Source: Blattamonas nauphoetae
Lineage: Eukaryota; Preaxostyla; Oxymonadida
Direction of reading: 5' to 3'
Assembly (NCBI GenBank): GCA_033064195.1
Contig: JARBJD010000202.1
Coordinates: 62,001-126,000 of the forward strand
Length of the DNA stretch: 64,000 nucleotides
This document shows, one piece after another, positions 2,353 to 9,640 of this stretch (the stretch's first letter is position 1; the number at the start of each line of letters is the position of its first letter). The translations under genes and the position numbers were made by a program. Under the pieces are notes generated by a model. The model made no database searches and was not told the origin of the DNA. It was given only the letters and a program-made list of their open reading frames with translations.

Positions 2353-4279
2353 ATGCCAAAAGTAACTGCCTCGCGACCAACTCAACCTGAAACAGACACA
2401 CAGGTGACTCCACCCAATTGTACGAGCATTCATTGCCTTCTCATTGTTCTGTTCTCGTTTTGAAGATGATCCTCTCTCACGAGTTCTGATTGGAACAGGG
2501 TCCGCTGGAAGTGTTTTCGAAATGCGGAAGGTTGGCCTGACGAATAGCCATGCTGTGAAGATTGTCCCAAAATCGCCAAGCGGAGGGCCAGATGTGTTTC
2601 AAAGTCAATATACGCTCCACAACAAATACCGACATTTCAACCTTGTTCGACACTATCCGATGAGTTTTGACAAGGACTTTTATTTTGTCGGGATGGAGCG
2701 ACTTTTGGGAGGAAGCCTGAAGACATTCTTGGAAGAAACACCGACTCATCCTCGCCCAGGCCTGGCTGTCTGCTCTTCTTCTTCTTTTTGACATTCTCTT
2801 GTTGATCTCTGTGGAATCTCGTTTTTTCTGTTTTCTATGATTTTGATTTGCCAGAGGATTTGCAGTGTTTTGTCTGGCGTTGTGGATGGTCTGTCGTTCC
2901 TGGAATCGAAGAACCAGGGATATGGGGCTCTTCATCCAGACAACATTTTGATTGGAAGATACAAATGTGGTGTTCTTGGTGTGTTATTTTGACATTTTTA
3001 ATTGTTTTGTTCCTACATCGTTTCAGGTGACTTCTTCTTCACACCTCCATCGTTGACGAATCCACAGGACATCGAGAGCGGGAGGTGTGCGTATCTTGCA
3101 CCGGAACTTGTTGGGGGACCAAGCACCACAGTGGCAACAAGCCGGTCCGATGTCTGGTCATTCGGAGTGATTGTGATGGAAAGTGTTGTTGGAGTGAATC
3201 CGTTCAAGGACCTGTCGAGCACGACGTTGCGGACAGGAGTGAACAGCTTCGATTTGGAGAAATATGTGGACAGTCTGAATGAAGAACAGAAATCGCGAAT
3301 GACACCAGCGTTGAAGCAATTGTTGTCAGAATGCCTCCAAATTGTTTGTATTCTCCCTGTTCGTCACTCTTCATTGTTTGTTTTAATGCCTCAGACACCC
3401 ACAGACCGAACAACATTTTCATCGATCCGACAACGCCGTCTTCTCCGCTCTCTGCTGACCATGCAAGAAGAGATCAACACATTCAACGAAGCGGTCATCC
3501 TCCACCAACAAGAGCAACTCTCACAGAGCATCTACTCTCCAGCACTCACTTCAGACCTCATCAAAGTCACTGTTTGGGAGGGCCAGTTGAATGAATTACA
3601 TCACCATACACAGCACAATGTACCCTTCCATTTGCAAATGCCAGTTGATTCTCTCATTCGACTCTTTCACCAGGGACCAAGCCAAGTCGTCTCACCGAAC
3701 GGTTCGGTCGTGGCTGATGGACGTTTGATTGACCGAAGTTCTACACTCTTGGAGGCAGGAGTGACAGCCCATTCAGAAATTTCCATTTTCCCTCAAGTAT
3801 CATCGGACAAGAACATTTTTATCATTCTTCCAACCAAACAGTTCTTCATCATGGAATATGACGTCCCACATCACCAAATGAACGCAGGAGCCTTCCTTCA
3901 CGACAGTTTCAAACGCTTAGGTCGTCCCGTAGAACAGTGCACACTCCATGGAGAAGACAATCGCTTGATTGACCTTTGTCAAACGATGAACGGGAACGAG
4001 ATACACGCTGGCTCTGTCATCACCATCAAAATGGTAACAAAAGGACACTTAATTTATATTTTATCATTGGATCAAACTATTACAGCTCTCGATGTTGATC
4101 TTCAAAATGACACGATTGACGCTGTTAAAAGGAAGATACAGGAAGCCAAAGGGATCCCTCCAGATCAGCAACGACTTATATTCGCCGGAAAACAGCTCGA
4201 AGATGGCAGAACCCTCAGTGATTACAACATCCAGAAGGACGCTACCCTTCATCTTGTCCTTCGTCTGCGTGGAGGCTAA
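2353..4279 (+). CDS. Pseudokinase fused to two UBL folds and a C-terminal ubiquitin
   Basis: A multi-exon gene with introns at 2420-2465, 2768-2854, 2979-3026 and 3344-3394, all GT-AG with matching phases. The protein starts with a kinase fold: glycine loop [12 protein letters not shown]-type lysine in HAVKIV, LAPEL and SDVWSFG. The catalytic loop reads [10 protein letters not shown], so the HRD aspartate is replaced by Ala, and DFG reads DFF; I infer a pseudokinase. Two divergent ubiquitin-like segments follow (about 3560-3790 and 3815-4030). Then comes a near-canonical ubiquitin (about 4046-4276) with [19 protein letters not shown], keeping Lys48 and Lys63, the Ile44 patch and the terminal LRLRGG immediately before TAA. 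That exposed Gly-Gly is what ubiquitin needs for conjugation. The ubiquitin N-terminus is divergent, so Lys6 and Lys11 are not obvious. First in-frame ATG is 2353; the frame is open upstream to 2182, so a 5' exon may be missing. Confidence 0.85.
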
Positions 4280-4491: not shown

Positions 4492-7400
4492 TCAAAGACC
4501 CCGGATGAGCTCTTCCTCACTCTTCAGTTTGGGCAGAATATCTTCCTTCTCACTCTCAAACGGGTCTCTCTCCCTGCTCAGACTTCGCCTGTCCTTCTCC
4601 GTCGGAATTTGCCGAATCAGAATGCTTGGTCCAGTTGACTCGCGAGGAACAGACTCCGCTGAGAAAGAAGAGAGCAAACAGACATCCTGGAAGACAGACA
4701 CGCACACCTTGCAGAGAGACGCTTCCACGTCGAATGTCCTTCAGCTTCCAGTTCGTGTTTCCAGCGTATCTTTCGTGATCACCATGCCGTTCACGCGACT
4801 GCGAGCGAGATGGGATTGATGGTGGGGTTGTTTGTGTCATAAGGAAGCTGGAGAGAAATAACGAGAGAAGCGACACATACCCATCCTTCCCGAATCCCCA
4901 CTCGACCGACACATCTCCCTTTTCGTTCTCGTTTGTGATTCGCATGCCTTCTTTCAGTGTCCCCATTCGAATCCCCCTGCTGCTCTCAGAGCCCCGCCGT
5001 GTTGGGGAGAGGGCGATGCGTGTTGAGCCATAGCCGGGTCCGGATTTTGGTGCCTGCCGCGATCGGAACGTGGCTGAAGAAGAAGAAAATGGAAAAGAGG
5101 AAAGTCAAACAGAGCTGGCCGTCTTCTCCTGTTTCGTCGATGCCTCTTCGCTCGCTCCTTCCATTCATGTCTCTCTGCAAAGTGCCCTCGTTGTTCGGAT
5201 TTGCAGTTTCTCCCATTTTCCGATTGTTCTCGTCTGAACGAAGAAAGCAAGGAAGAAACAACGAATGACAACACAAGAACGAGCCATGCCTCGAATCATT
5301 TTCATTTCCAGTTCATTCCACGACGTCCCAATCTGCTCCAGCCAGTTCTCAAAGTCGAGTCGGACCGACGGCATGTTCCTCTTCATCTCCCGCAGAAGCG
5401 CAATCAGATTCTCCGAGAACGCCGGGGCTGGCTCCGCACCCTTCCTTCTTCCGTTCTTCCCCTGCCGCCCTCCCTGCAGCCGATACCCATTCTGACCAGC
5501 CGAAATCGACAAATCTGCGTTCCCTTCAGCAGCGCTTGTGGTGTATTTCTGTCCTCTCATCTCTTCCCGTCTCTGAATGTCGTTGTTTCGGGTCTCCGAC
5601 TCCCTCCGCCGCTTGTTCTGCCCCGCCGAGAGATATCCCATATTGACATGCCCGTCGCTCTGTCCAATCCGCACCAGATTGCTCGACTCGCCGTTGCTGT
5701 CTGGCCGACTCCTCCCTTCAGTCCTTCCCTCGTTCCACGCATCTCCACCAGCTGTCGAATGCGGCGTGCCCTTCTCCATCCTCGGTGTTGCGCCAGGTGC
5801 ATTCCATCCGCCCTGTACATTCTTCGGTCCTCCACGCGGCGTGTACAGTGTGGATCCCGGGGCAGACTCATCACCGACCCCCATCACCCACTCAACCTCC
5901 TCCCGCACCCACGCCTGCGCAAGCATCTTCGAAAGGCCACGCGCTCTCTGCTCGTTGCTCTCCTCTCGCTTGTCCACCCAGTACTTGTCCCAGTCTCGCT
6001 TTCGCCGCTCGATTCGCAGCGCAAACTCCGAAAACGACAAGTCCAGCTCTTTCCTCTGCTTCCGGATTTCGGAGAGCTCGTCCAGTCTCTTTCGGTTGAG
6101 GAGGCCTCGAGCAAGCTTCTCCCACTTCGCGATCACTTCGTTCAGTCTCGCCCGTCTGATGTTCTCAAGCTCCTTTCTGGCCATCTCGTCGACTCTTCTG
6201 TGTCTGACTCTGTTCTGTTCATCAGTCAGGAGATCCTCCACACCTGCATGGCCTGAAAACACGTTTATGGGAAGAAGAACAAAATACCCTCATCAGCCTC
6301 AGCCTCGCCGATCGCCTTGATCAGTTGGAGTGCAGCATCTTCGAATGTTTGAACCTGCCTTTCTCTCGCCTCTTCGACCATCTGCGCCACATCGTCCTGC
6401 ATCGACATGACCGACAGAGTTGGCGAGCAGGGAGAGGGGAACGAGTACGACATTCGCGAAGGACGTTCCTCTGCCTCATTCCGGCTGAGATGGTCGGGGT
6501 GACCTTCGACGGCTTCCTCGCCCATCGCCCCAGCGGCTGGTGGAAAGAGTGTCTTGCGTGGAGATGGTTGGTCGAGGTTGGCTTCTGCACTGCGAGGCGA
6601 GACGATCGAGTCTCTTCCTCGGTTCCTAAATAGGTAATCGGAAGAATGAGAAGTCAAAGAATGAAGGAATGACGCAAAAGAGACACAAACGTTGGGTTTT
6701 TGGGTGTGAGAGGAACCAGAGCTACCCCTTTGAAAGACTGGATGAAGTCGTTGAGCTGGTGGATCTCGTCTCTCAGAGTGTCCTCCAGTCCATCCACATC
6801 ATCCTCCCTCCATCCCCTGTCCGAGCTGTACCCGTCCCGCACACTGAACTGCCGATCCTCCTGCGCATCATTGATTCCCAACAGTCGTTCCAGCGATCTC
6901 TGCTTCTCGCCCATCCCTCTCTCCGTCGATCCGCCGCGCGGACTCAGCTGTCTGTCACGTGACCCTTCTCGACTGCCCATCTGCCTCTCCTGCGAAGTGC
7001 CTCTTCCGCCTGTTTGTCTTTCGGCTGATCCATCCCGCCCACTGCTCCTGTCAGTCAACCCAACCTCTCTTCCTTGCCTTCCCACCGACCCAAACACATT
7101 GCGATCTGTTCCACTCCCACTTCCTCCTGTCTGCTGTGACGGTCTCGGCCTCTGTCTCACCCCATCACCCCTCTGCTCCCCGCTGTGGTCTGTCACCTCA
7201 GTCACCAACTTCAGTTGAGGCGGACGAAATCCTTGCCCTGGTTTCGTTCCTCCACCAGACACGCCTTCCTCACCCGATTTTGCATCGCCTCTTCCTCGTG
7301 AATCCGAGCGAGAGTAATAAGGCGAGGAGGGGACATCCGGGTTCGAATCGTCGCTCTTCGCCTTCTTCCTTCGAAGAGCATTCTGAACAATGGTTGTGAC

Positions 7401-9640
7401 TTGGCCAGTGAAGGCTTTTGTGGCTCGCGTCTGCAGATCCAACTCGTCCTTCATCTGCTGTTCTCTCTCCATCATCACCTTCAGTGCCTCCTGCAGCTCA
7501 GCCACGTCCTGCGTCGCTTTGTTGAACTCTCGAGGAGTGACGTTGGTTGATGTCTGCTCAGGGTCTTCTGCCATCTCATCCAAAAGCTGTTCGAGTTGTT
7601 TCTTCTCGTTTTTCAGCTGGGCCACCTCTGCTCGGAGTCGCTCTGTCTCCTTCGCTTGTGCTTCTGCCCTTTCCATCTCTTCCGGTGTTTGTGTTGGTTG
7701 TGGAGTGGTTGAAGTGTCTTCGAGACGAGCCTCTCTCATTTCCTTCATTCGCTTCTTCAGCCTTTCTATTTCCTTCTTTGCTTCGGACAATTCTTCCGTC
7801 TTCAGCATCTTCTCTCGAATCAACTCATTCCTCTCTTCGTGCTCTTCTTGCTCCATCTGCTCCTTTTCAAGTTTTTGCTTGTCCTGCCATTTTTTGATTG
7901 ATTCTTCCCCAAACTGCTCGTTCTGCTTCAGCATCTTGTTGTCCACCTTCAGTTGGAGCAGCTGCCTCTTCAAATCCGCAATTTGGCTTTCATAATTCTC
8001 CATTTTCTTGTTCCCACTGTCAATCTGCTTTTGGAGTGCCTGTTTTTCAATTTCGAATTTGGCTTCCTTTTCAGACCCAGCAATGTCGGCCTTTCTGATC
8101 TCCGCCTGCACTTCTTCAGCGTACTGCCGTGATTCTTCCCTGCCCTCCTCCCGAGCCTTCTCCATTTGTCGCTGAAGCTCTGCCTCCTTTTCTTTGAGGA
8201 ACATGTCCTGGTGTTCGTGAAGGGTCTTCACTTGATTTCTCAAATCTGCAATCATCTCATCTTTGCTTTCCACCTTTGCTATCATGTCCTTCATTCGTCC
8301 AAGTTCCATCCTGGCGTTGAGAAGATCGGCTTCTGTCTTTCTGAGGGAGTATTCAAGTCGCCCTTGCGTTGTCGATGCTCGTTCATCTTTCAACTCCAAT
8401 TCACGACGTGTTTTCTCAAGTTCACCACGTTCTTTGATTAAATCCTTTTGCAAATCAAAGTTTTGTTCTTGGAGCGAATCAACTTGCACGTTGAGTCGCA
8501 TATTCTCGTCGGAGAGGCGGTCACATTGTTGAGCCTTTGATTCCTCTTCTTGGGAGACTTGGGTTCTGAGATCGAGAAGTTGTTGCTCATACATCTTCTT
8601 GAGATTCTCTATCTGTTCTTGGTGAACAGAATGAAGTATCATTCCTGTTTCTGCTTGATCAATAATGAGGTCATCAAATTTACCGATTCCTTTCGTTCTT
8701 CGGGATCTTCGTGAAGAGAGAGCTCGACTACTACTCAATGGTGATGATGGGAGTGTTCGAGCTGTCTGCCCTCCGCGTCTAGGCGAGGTGGAGAGGAGCG
8801 GTGGTGGACTGATTGTTTTGATGGTATCAGAGAGGTCCAATGGAGATGAACCTCGCTCTACCACACCAGTTTGAACTGGGGAGTCTGGTGACTCTTCGTT
8901 GATTGGGAAATCTATATGTGCACTTGCATTGACTTCGATCTCCTCCATCTGTCGGACTTTCCTGACTTCTTCGATGTTTTCAGACGGGTCAAAGTCATCA
9001 GGAAGTTGTGTTTCAGAGAGTTCATTCAAATCCTGGTCTTCAGCTCGCTCAACAAACCTGTGATTGCTTAGAAAACTACAAGAGAAAGATACCATTTTTG
9101 AAGTTTGTTGAGATTCGAGTTCGTTTCTGTTTTGCAGTTCTGATAGGCTTCAAACGTTGAATTGATGGTATTTTGTGTTTTCTGACCAGATATACAATCA
9201 AGATAGTCGAATAGAACATACATCAAAAACTTGGTCAGCATTCAACATTTTTTCTCCCTCTGGCTTTGACACCAGGAGTTGAGCCGTGAGCTCATTGTCC
9301 TATTCAGTAAATTATGCGTAAAATCAGAAGAAATATGCTAACAGCGAGCTGCGTTGCAGTTTCATATTGATTCAAAGTTTGTTGGAGTCTTTCTCGAATA
9401 CCTCTGAGTTCATTTTGGTTTTGTTGTTGTTTCTGTGAAACATATAGAGACAGACACTGTAAAAACAAACTTCTTCGTAGGCTTTGAGCTGTTGGGCACT
9501 GAGTGGGAGAGTGAATGATGAAAACAGAAATAATGATACGAATCTGTGGCTCCTGACCCTGACTGTTGTGATGATCCTGTTGCAACAGCTCGATACGGAG
9601 TCATATACGAACGTCTGACGCGTGGAGCAGAGGAATGCAT
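4492..9640 (-). CDS. Large coiled-coil protein, multi-exon
   Basis: Function not recognised. I read one gene of roughly 1,450 residues from ATG 9640 (MHSSAPRVRRSYMTPYRAV) down to a TGA at 4492. Short exons at 9100-9640 join, with agreeing phases, into an 800-codon exon (6.7-9.07 kb) that is almost wholly heptad coiled coil rich in Glu, Lys and Gln. Two more large exons (6.3-6.6 and 5.2-6.25 kb) add charged helix and low-complexity Gly/Ser/Arg linkers. Introns of 24-100 nt have clear pyrimidine-rich acceptors. Such proteins often belong to the cytoskeleton or basal body; that is inference from composition only. The C-terminus is uncertain: an alternative acceptor near 4793 would end the protein at TGA 4741-4743 instead. 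It could also be two adjacent genes, though the exon phases join. Confidence 0.6.

Follow-up and report, generated by a model that had tools for sequence, protein, structure and literature searches.

A predicted pseudokinase of the oxymonad Blattamonas nauphoetae ends in a ubiquitin domain with a bare Gly-Gly tail

We analysed a stretch of 64,000 nucleotides from the Blattamonas nauphoetae genome (contig JARBJD010000202.1, positions 62,001 to 126,000 of the forward strand), referred to here as the window. A gene on its plus strand encodes a kinase domain followed by two divergent, putatively ubiquitin-like segments (UBL1 and UBL2) and a ubiquitin domain that closes the protein. The gene comprises five exons and four GT-AG introns, and its spliced product, read from the ATG at 2353, is 564 residues long. 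Together with its copies elsewhere in the genome it forms what we call family A. Two minus-strand frames in the window, 5165-6286 and 6654-9146, gave no Pfam match. The features of the gene, in window coordinates, are as follows.

2353..2419, plus strand: exon 1, with the start ATG (spliced model equal to the deposited protein P0001)
2420..2465, plus strand: intron 1 (GT..AG, homologous sites in 6/6 family-A copies)
2466..2767, plus strand: exon 2, kinase N-lobe with glycine loop and AVKIV lysine (Pkinase match from residue 30)
2768..2854, plus strand: intron 2 (GT..AG, homologous sites in 6/6 family-A copies)
2855..2978, plus strand: exon 3, catalytic-loop region (spliced model and alignment of family-A copies)
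2924..2944, plus strand: GALHPDN, catalytic loop with Ala at the expected HRD Asp (Ala in 6/6 spliced family-A copies)
2979..3026, plus strand: intron 3 (GT..AG, homologous sites in 6/6 family-A copies)
3027..3343, plus strand: exon 4, kinase C-lobe with GDFFF and APE (Pkinase matches residues 27-114 of the open reading frame 3002-4279)
3344..3394, plus strand: intron 4 (GT..AG, homologous sites in 6/6 family-A copies)
3395..4279, plus strand: exon 5, end of the kinase, linker, UBL1, UBL2, ubiquitin and stop (open frame and spliced model)
3551..3799, plus strand: UBL1, divergent putative ubiquitin-like segment, residues 323-405, limits set by us (profile comparison with shuffles)
3800..4036, plus strand: UBL2, divergent putative ubiquitin-like segment, residues 406-484, limits set by us (profile comparison with shuffles)
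4013..4063, plus strand: junction of UBL2 and ubiquitin, without Gly-Gly (sequence)
4043..4276, plus strand: ubiquitin domain, residues 487-564 (Pfam ubiquitin, E 1.4e-23; 53/76 identical to host ubiquitin)
4271..4276, plus strand: Gly75-Gly76, with the TAA stop at 4277-4279 directly after

The frame 3002-4279 is single and unbroken up to the ubiquitin tail and the stop, and the spliced model matches the deposited Blattamonas nauphoetae protein P0001 at all 564 residues. On deposit, P0001 and P0002 bear the product name 'Ubiquitin-60S ribosomal protein L40'. Pfam detects no ribosomal domain in P0001, so this name is unfitting, and it conceals the kinase-UBL-UBL-ubiquitin architecture. Deposited and spliced models coincide for the window copy and for C394 (P0002); P0003 (C157), P0004 (C197) and P0005 (matched to C634b by its sequence and the length of its contig) deviate in start or introns, P0003 having a later start and a retained intron 4. 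Family A occupies eight genomic loci, namely C116 (the window copy), C394, C634a, C634b, C334, C157, C197 and C576. Introns were compared in C116, C394, C634a, C334, C157 and C197, with exon ends projected from the window copy. The lengths of introns 2-4 vary among these copies by non-multiples of three, and splicing preserves an open frame. In the window copy, for instance, intron 4 is 51 nt long and stop-free, so that it could be read through, and that of C334 measures 49 nt. Homologous introns that change length in this way with the frame intact are poorly explained by errors in the reads or by an overlooked gene boundary.

The earlier note on this DNA had described a kinase fold, two divergent ubiquitin-like segments and a terminal ubiquitin, encoded with four introns; the spliced model agrees with this anatomy, and the introns stand, given the identity with P0001 and the homologous sites in all six copies. 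Its reference to oxymonads was also right. It had also named what would overturn its reading, a separate ubiquitin transcript unit or a frameshift in the assembly before position 4046. We reject both on the strength of C394 and C634a, which lie on other contigs and keep intact 425-aa open frames ending in LRGG, and of the deposited window protein, which equals the spliced model. The ATG at 4031-4033, from which a separate ubiquitin gene could start, is absent from C394, C634a, C334 and C197 and present in C157. Two further GT-AG pairs share the end 4085, namely 4016-4085 (70 nt) and 4034-4085 (52 nt); removing either as an intron would disrupt the reading frame of the ubiquitin domain.

The N-terminal part of the spliced protein matches Pkinase over residues 30-284 (E 7.1e-28, 98.2 bits against a cut-off of 31.7). 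The glycine loop (GTGSAGSVF), the AVKIV lysine, the catalytic-loop asparagine and the DFG aspartate (as DFF) are all kept in the window. The HRD aspartate is missing, as had been noticed before, and is replaced by alanine in all six spliced family-A copies; the catalytic loop reads GALHPDN in the window and GALHPGN in the other five. Judged by these motifs, the window kinase domain is a pseudokinase of the protein kinase superfamily. Some pseudokinases retain phosphotransfer activity.

UBL1 and UBL2 gave no Pfam match on the spliced protein. With HHalign, we compared 13-sequence profiles of the two segments with a 12-sequence ubiquitin profile. The probabilities against ubiquitin were low, 48% for UBL1 and 13% for UBL2 (26% and 13% under the settings of the shuffle runs), and UBL1 against UBL2 reached 82%. 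None of 100 column shuffles attained the real score in any of the three profile comparisons. This supports a provisional assignment of both as ubiquitin-like segments.

The last domain is similar to ubiquitin along its entire length. It keeps Leu8, Arg42, Ile44, Lys48, Gln49, Lys63, His68, Val70, Arg72, Gly75 and Gly76; among the lysines, Lys27, Lys29, Lys48 and Lys63 are retained and Lys6, Lys11 and Lys33 are lost. Alignment with host ubiquitin thus upholds the previous statement that Lys48, Lys63 and the Ile44 patch are intact, and the protein does end exactly at LRLRGG, followed by TAA. The mature C-terminal Gly-Gly expected of an ISG15/FAT10-like modifier is therefore present, and there is no free N-terminal Met1, as the chain continues N-terminal of the domain. 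The host polyubiquitin units that were read end in GG-F-stop, unlike the untrimmed LRLRGG-stop of the window.

Deubiquitinases cut after Gly76. In cleavable fusions of the UBA52/RPS27A type the junction carries Gly-Gly; here ubiquitin comes last and no Gly-Gly precedes it, either in the window copy or in the remaining five family-A copies that were spliced. Deubiquitinases thus lack their usual site and release of free ubiquitin is unlikely, which speaks against the earlier suggestion that the domain is cut off as a source for the free ubiquitin pool. Its similarity to host ubiquitin would suit such a source, but the first strand has diverged and the genome has normal polyubiquitin genes, and we give this reading very little credence. 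At C445:187500-194500, divergent ubiquitin-like units lie beside normal ubiquitin, one of them ending in LRLRG-stop with a single Gly.

The window copy is identical to host ubiquitin at 48/55 positions between residues 22 and 76, the closest match among the 11 fusion copies compared. In this region its dN to host ubiquitin is 0.09-0.11, and dS exceeds 1.5 or is undefined for all 14 host units; NG86 estimates throughout this analysis, on 45-83 codons, are noisy, some being undefined. The dN to host ubiquitin is 0.33-0.53 in four other family-A copies and 0.20-0.33 in six copies of family B, a set of kinase fusions described below; for the sister copy C157 it is 0.33-0.37 over 45 codons. A match of this kind despite saturated synonymous sites is what purifying selection on residues 22-76 would leave. 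Selection on a ubiquitin face seems to have preserved the window domain, apart from a first strand that has drifted. Among family-A copies, ubiquitin dN/dS is not low (0.48/0.88 for the window and C157), so the window copy is the one member of the family in which strong constraint is evident. Recent conversion from a polyubiquitin gene is not supported, as nucleotide identity to the 14 host units is 74-77% with dS above 1.5 or undefined; a later conversion is also countered by the dS between the window and C157, which is about equal for ubiquitin and UBL1. A one-residue insertion is common to the ubiquitin domains of the window, C394, C634a and C334. Together with the dS to C157, it indicates that the window ubiquitin descended with the family.

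These data bear on whether ubiquitin domain and Gly-Gly tail are a relic, inherited from the fused ubiquitin and without a role, with the tail decaying copy by copy. Fast evolution of the UBLs and ubiquitin in most copies would fit such decay, as would the state of several tails: C157 has lost Gly-Gly, C197 is cut off early in the ubiquitin domain, and in C334 GG is followed by eight residues, with GAA at the position of the C394 TAA stop. The window copy does not fit, since it differs from the host at 7/55 positions in the face of synonymous saturation while C157 has drifted much further, and we hold a roleless relic to be improbable.

Five of the eight family-A tails end in LRGG-stop (C116, C394, C634a, C634b and C576). 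Leu73-Gly76 are invariant in four Gly-Gly-bearing copies, in which 24/76 positions are invariant overall (P 0.008 under random placement; the test was post hoc and its four sequences are related). C394 and C334 have Lys at position 72, and these two and C634a have Arg at position 48, substitutions that we count against a special role for the tail. C634b (C634:130500-140400, minus strand) has an interruption of about 6 kb that separates UBL1 from UBL2; the open reading frames of at least 150 aa listed there are the two gene pieces, with none inside the insert. C576:1-4000 nearly duplicates the C394 copy but differs from it by many small indels, and its contig may be poorly polished. C334 also carries an N-terminal family-A fragment at 306569.

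The family has a mosaic history. In steps of 100 bases, the window and C394 are 91-100% identical across the kinase, introns included, and identity drops at about 3500-3600, the UBL and ubiquitin segments beyond being 46-72% identical. The corresponding dS is 0.10 for the kinase, above 2.7 for UBL1 and UBL2, and undefined for ubiquitin. The tail cassette of the window instead pairs with that of C157, with dS of 0.84 for UBL1, 0.60 for UBL2 and 0.88 for ubiquitin. With a kinase near C394 and a tail near C157, one pseudokinase head appears on two different UBL-UBL-ubiquitin cassettes, a case of visible domain shuffling.

Two further families were found in the genome. Family B has the same domain order, with kinases that look active on their motifs: the seven B-type proteins P0024-P0030 all carry HGDLKPEN, and 6/7 carry DLG (DLR in P0027). 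Among the matches listed, kinase matches lie directly upstream at 10/11 B loci, C256 being the one without. Gly-Gly is present in 0/11 readable family-B UBL-UBL-ubiquitin tails; nine end with Arg at or near position 74, and the other two with Ser and Val. Nine of these tails use TGA as stop and two use TAA. Since a single substitution separates TGA here from GGA, a codon for Gly75, an old nonsense change is the likely cause of the family-B tail loss. At C49, a further B-type locus, there is no match past residue 402 of P0029 among the matches listed. P0029 as a query gave at least 126 six-frame matches, several per gene and mostly to the kinase part (78 of 980 candidates scored), and on this count the genome holds a large kinase expansion. 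Family C comprises four pseudokinase loci (C545, C485, C68 and C1), of which C545 and C485 are nearly alike. The catalytic loop is GALHLSN or GVLHLSN in the three of four for which an alignment was possible. Similarity of the last segment to the window ubiquitin is weak (E 0.03-0.2, three loci reported by tblastn), and 0/4 tails have Gly-Gly.

A giant modifier, the second reading of the earlier note, is one explanation for the window tail: E1 and E2 enzymes would activate Gly76, and the entire protein, from pseudokinase to ubiquitin, would be ligated to targets. The LRLRGG-stop is already mature and needs no trimming, Arg42, Lys48, Gln49, Arg72 and the Ile44 patch are kept in the window, and the genome has three E1-type loci (PF10585). 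A parallel is offered by Toxoplasma PUBL, described as a larger unprocessed protein with a C-terminal ubiquitin-derived domain whose terminal glycines are kept and indispensable (PMC5487736). Pulldowns of PUBL, however, are reported there to have given no additional bands (PMC5487736), and PUBL is unlike the window protein in its length (311 aa), its place in the apicoplast, the RGG before its ubiquitin domain and the lack of any kinase in the available text of that report (PMC5487736). The tails within the genome also count against ligation: Gly-Gly is lost in C157 and C197, C394 and C334 carry Lys at residue 72, and the lack of Gly-Gly throughout families B and C points to a common function independent of conjugation. 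Taken together, ligation as a giant modifier is possible but has the smaller share of our confidence. Somewhat more doubtful is the fuller proposal that the 564-residue pseudokinase is ligated through Gly76 and that its sisters with matching domain order, which stop at about Arg74, are natural controls that could not be conjugated.

We favour, at about an even chance of being right, an uncleaved pseudokinase adaptor that displays ubiquitin in cis, and we rank such a built-in ubiquitin decoy as more likely than a whole-protein tag. The dead kinase head would bind a partner, possibly an active kinase from the same expanded set, and UBL1 and UBL2 may provide binding surfaces or act as spacers. 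The ubiquitin domain, whose Ile44-face residues Leu8, Ile44, His68 and Val70 are kept in the window, would leave this intact face and its free tail accessible to ubiquitin receptors. The protein would then act as if permanently monoubiquitylated, or mimic unanchored ubiquitin, with neither conjugation nor cleavage. The absence of Gly-Gly from the tails of families B and C suits this reading, as do its absence from the family-A junctions and the host-like residues 22-76 of the window copy. A free Gly-Gly is a possible ligand of ZnF-UBP domains. A simple adaptor needs no Gly-Gly, so the bare LRGG-stop kept in C116, C394, C634a, the interrupted C634b and the near-duplicate C576 counts against the adaptor reading, as do the invariance of Leu73-Gly76 and the ubiquitin dN/dS among family-A copies, which is not low. 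By analogy, OASL may serve as a precedent for the adaptor: it is described as a dead enzyme with two C-terminal UBLs able to stand in for K63-linked polyubiquitin (PMC4446440). It differs from the window protein in having another enzyme fold and two UBLs rather than three, and in being a human antiviral protein.

Other known systems share single traits with the window protein. In L40/S27a fusions ubiquitin is likewise joined in frame to another protein, but there it is N-terminal and cut off after Gly76, whereas the window ubiquitin is C-terminal and is accompanied by no ribosomal domain in Pfam. TBK1/IKK resemble it in having a kinase followed by a ubiquitin-like domain, and Pfam TBK1_ULD gave a weak match, under the cut-off, on the window ubiquitin domain. 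TBK1/IKK are active, carry a single internal ULD and do not end in Gly-Gly. ISG15 (PMC10693564) and FAT10 (PMC6102260) are described as modifiers with tandem ubiquitin-like domains; unlike the window protein, they have no kinase head and are much smaller. The earlier note had regarded the reversed order, with ubiquitin C-terminal, as a departure from the norm. It is unusual but has precedents in PUBL (PMC5487736) and in algae, from which C-terminal and internal ubiquitin fusions are reported, those of Guillardia theta and Bigelowiella natans being C-terminal (PMC6332867). The algal fusions have ubiquitin C-terminal on another protein, as in the window; the partners named are not kinases, and the word 'kinase' occurs 0 times in the main text (PMC6332867).

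A protein-database search returned 23 rows, consisting of six Blattamonas proteins, P0007 and 16 kinases without a Pfam ubiquitin domain (best 7,997 candidates scored), and in two further searches 12/12 and 4/4 matches were from Blattamonas. The kinase-UBL-UBL-ubiquitin order was not found outside Blattamonas by this word-based search of the protein database, which relies on shared 5-residue words and may miss distant relatives. P0007 (929 aa) is a separate fusion, with an N-terminal ubiquitin ending in LRLRGQ, perhaps uncleavable, and a kinase further on. Among the papers listed, no publication on such a family was recognised by title or abstract opening, and the Blattamonas genome paper (PMC10703272) uses the word 'ubiquitin' 0 times in its main text. 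On present evidence, the window gene is a new version of a ubiquitin fusion rather than a new kind of system.

Ubiquitin usually stands N-terminal in fusions and is then cut free; this oxymonad has built and multiplied proteins of kinase-UBL-UBL-ubiquitin order. Several pseudokinases with conjugation-ready tails and active-looking kinases that stop at about Arg74 form natural pairs, with which one may ask whether a protein this large can act as a modifier, and in what way a ubiquitin signal can be built into a kinase itself.
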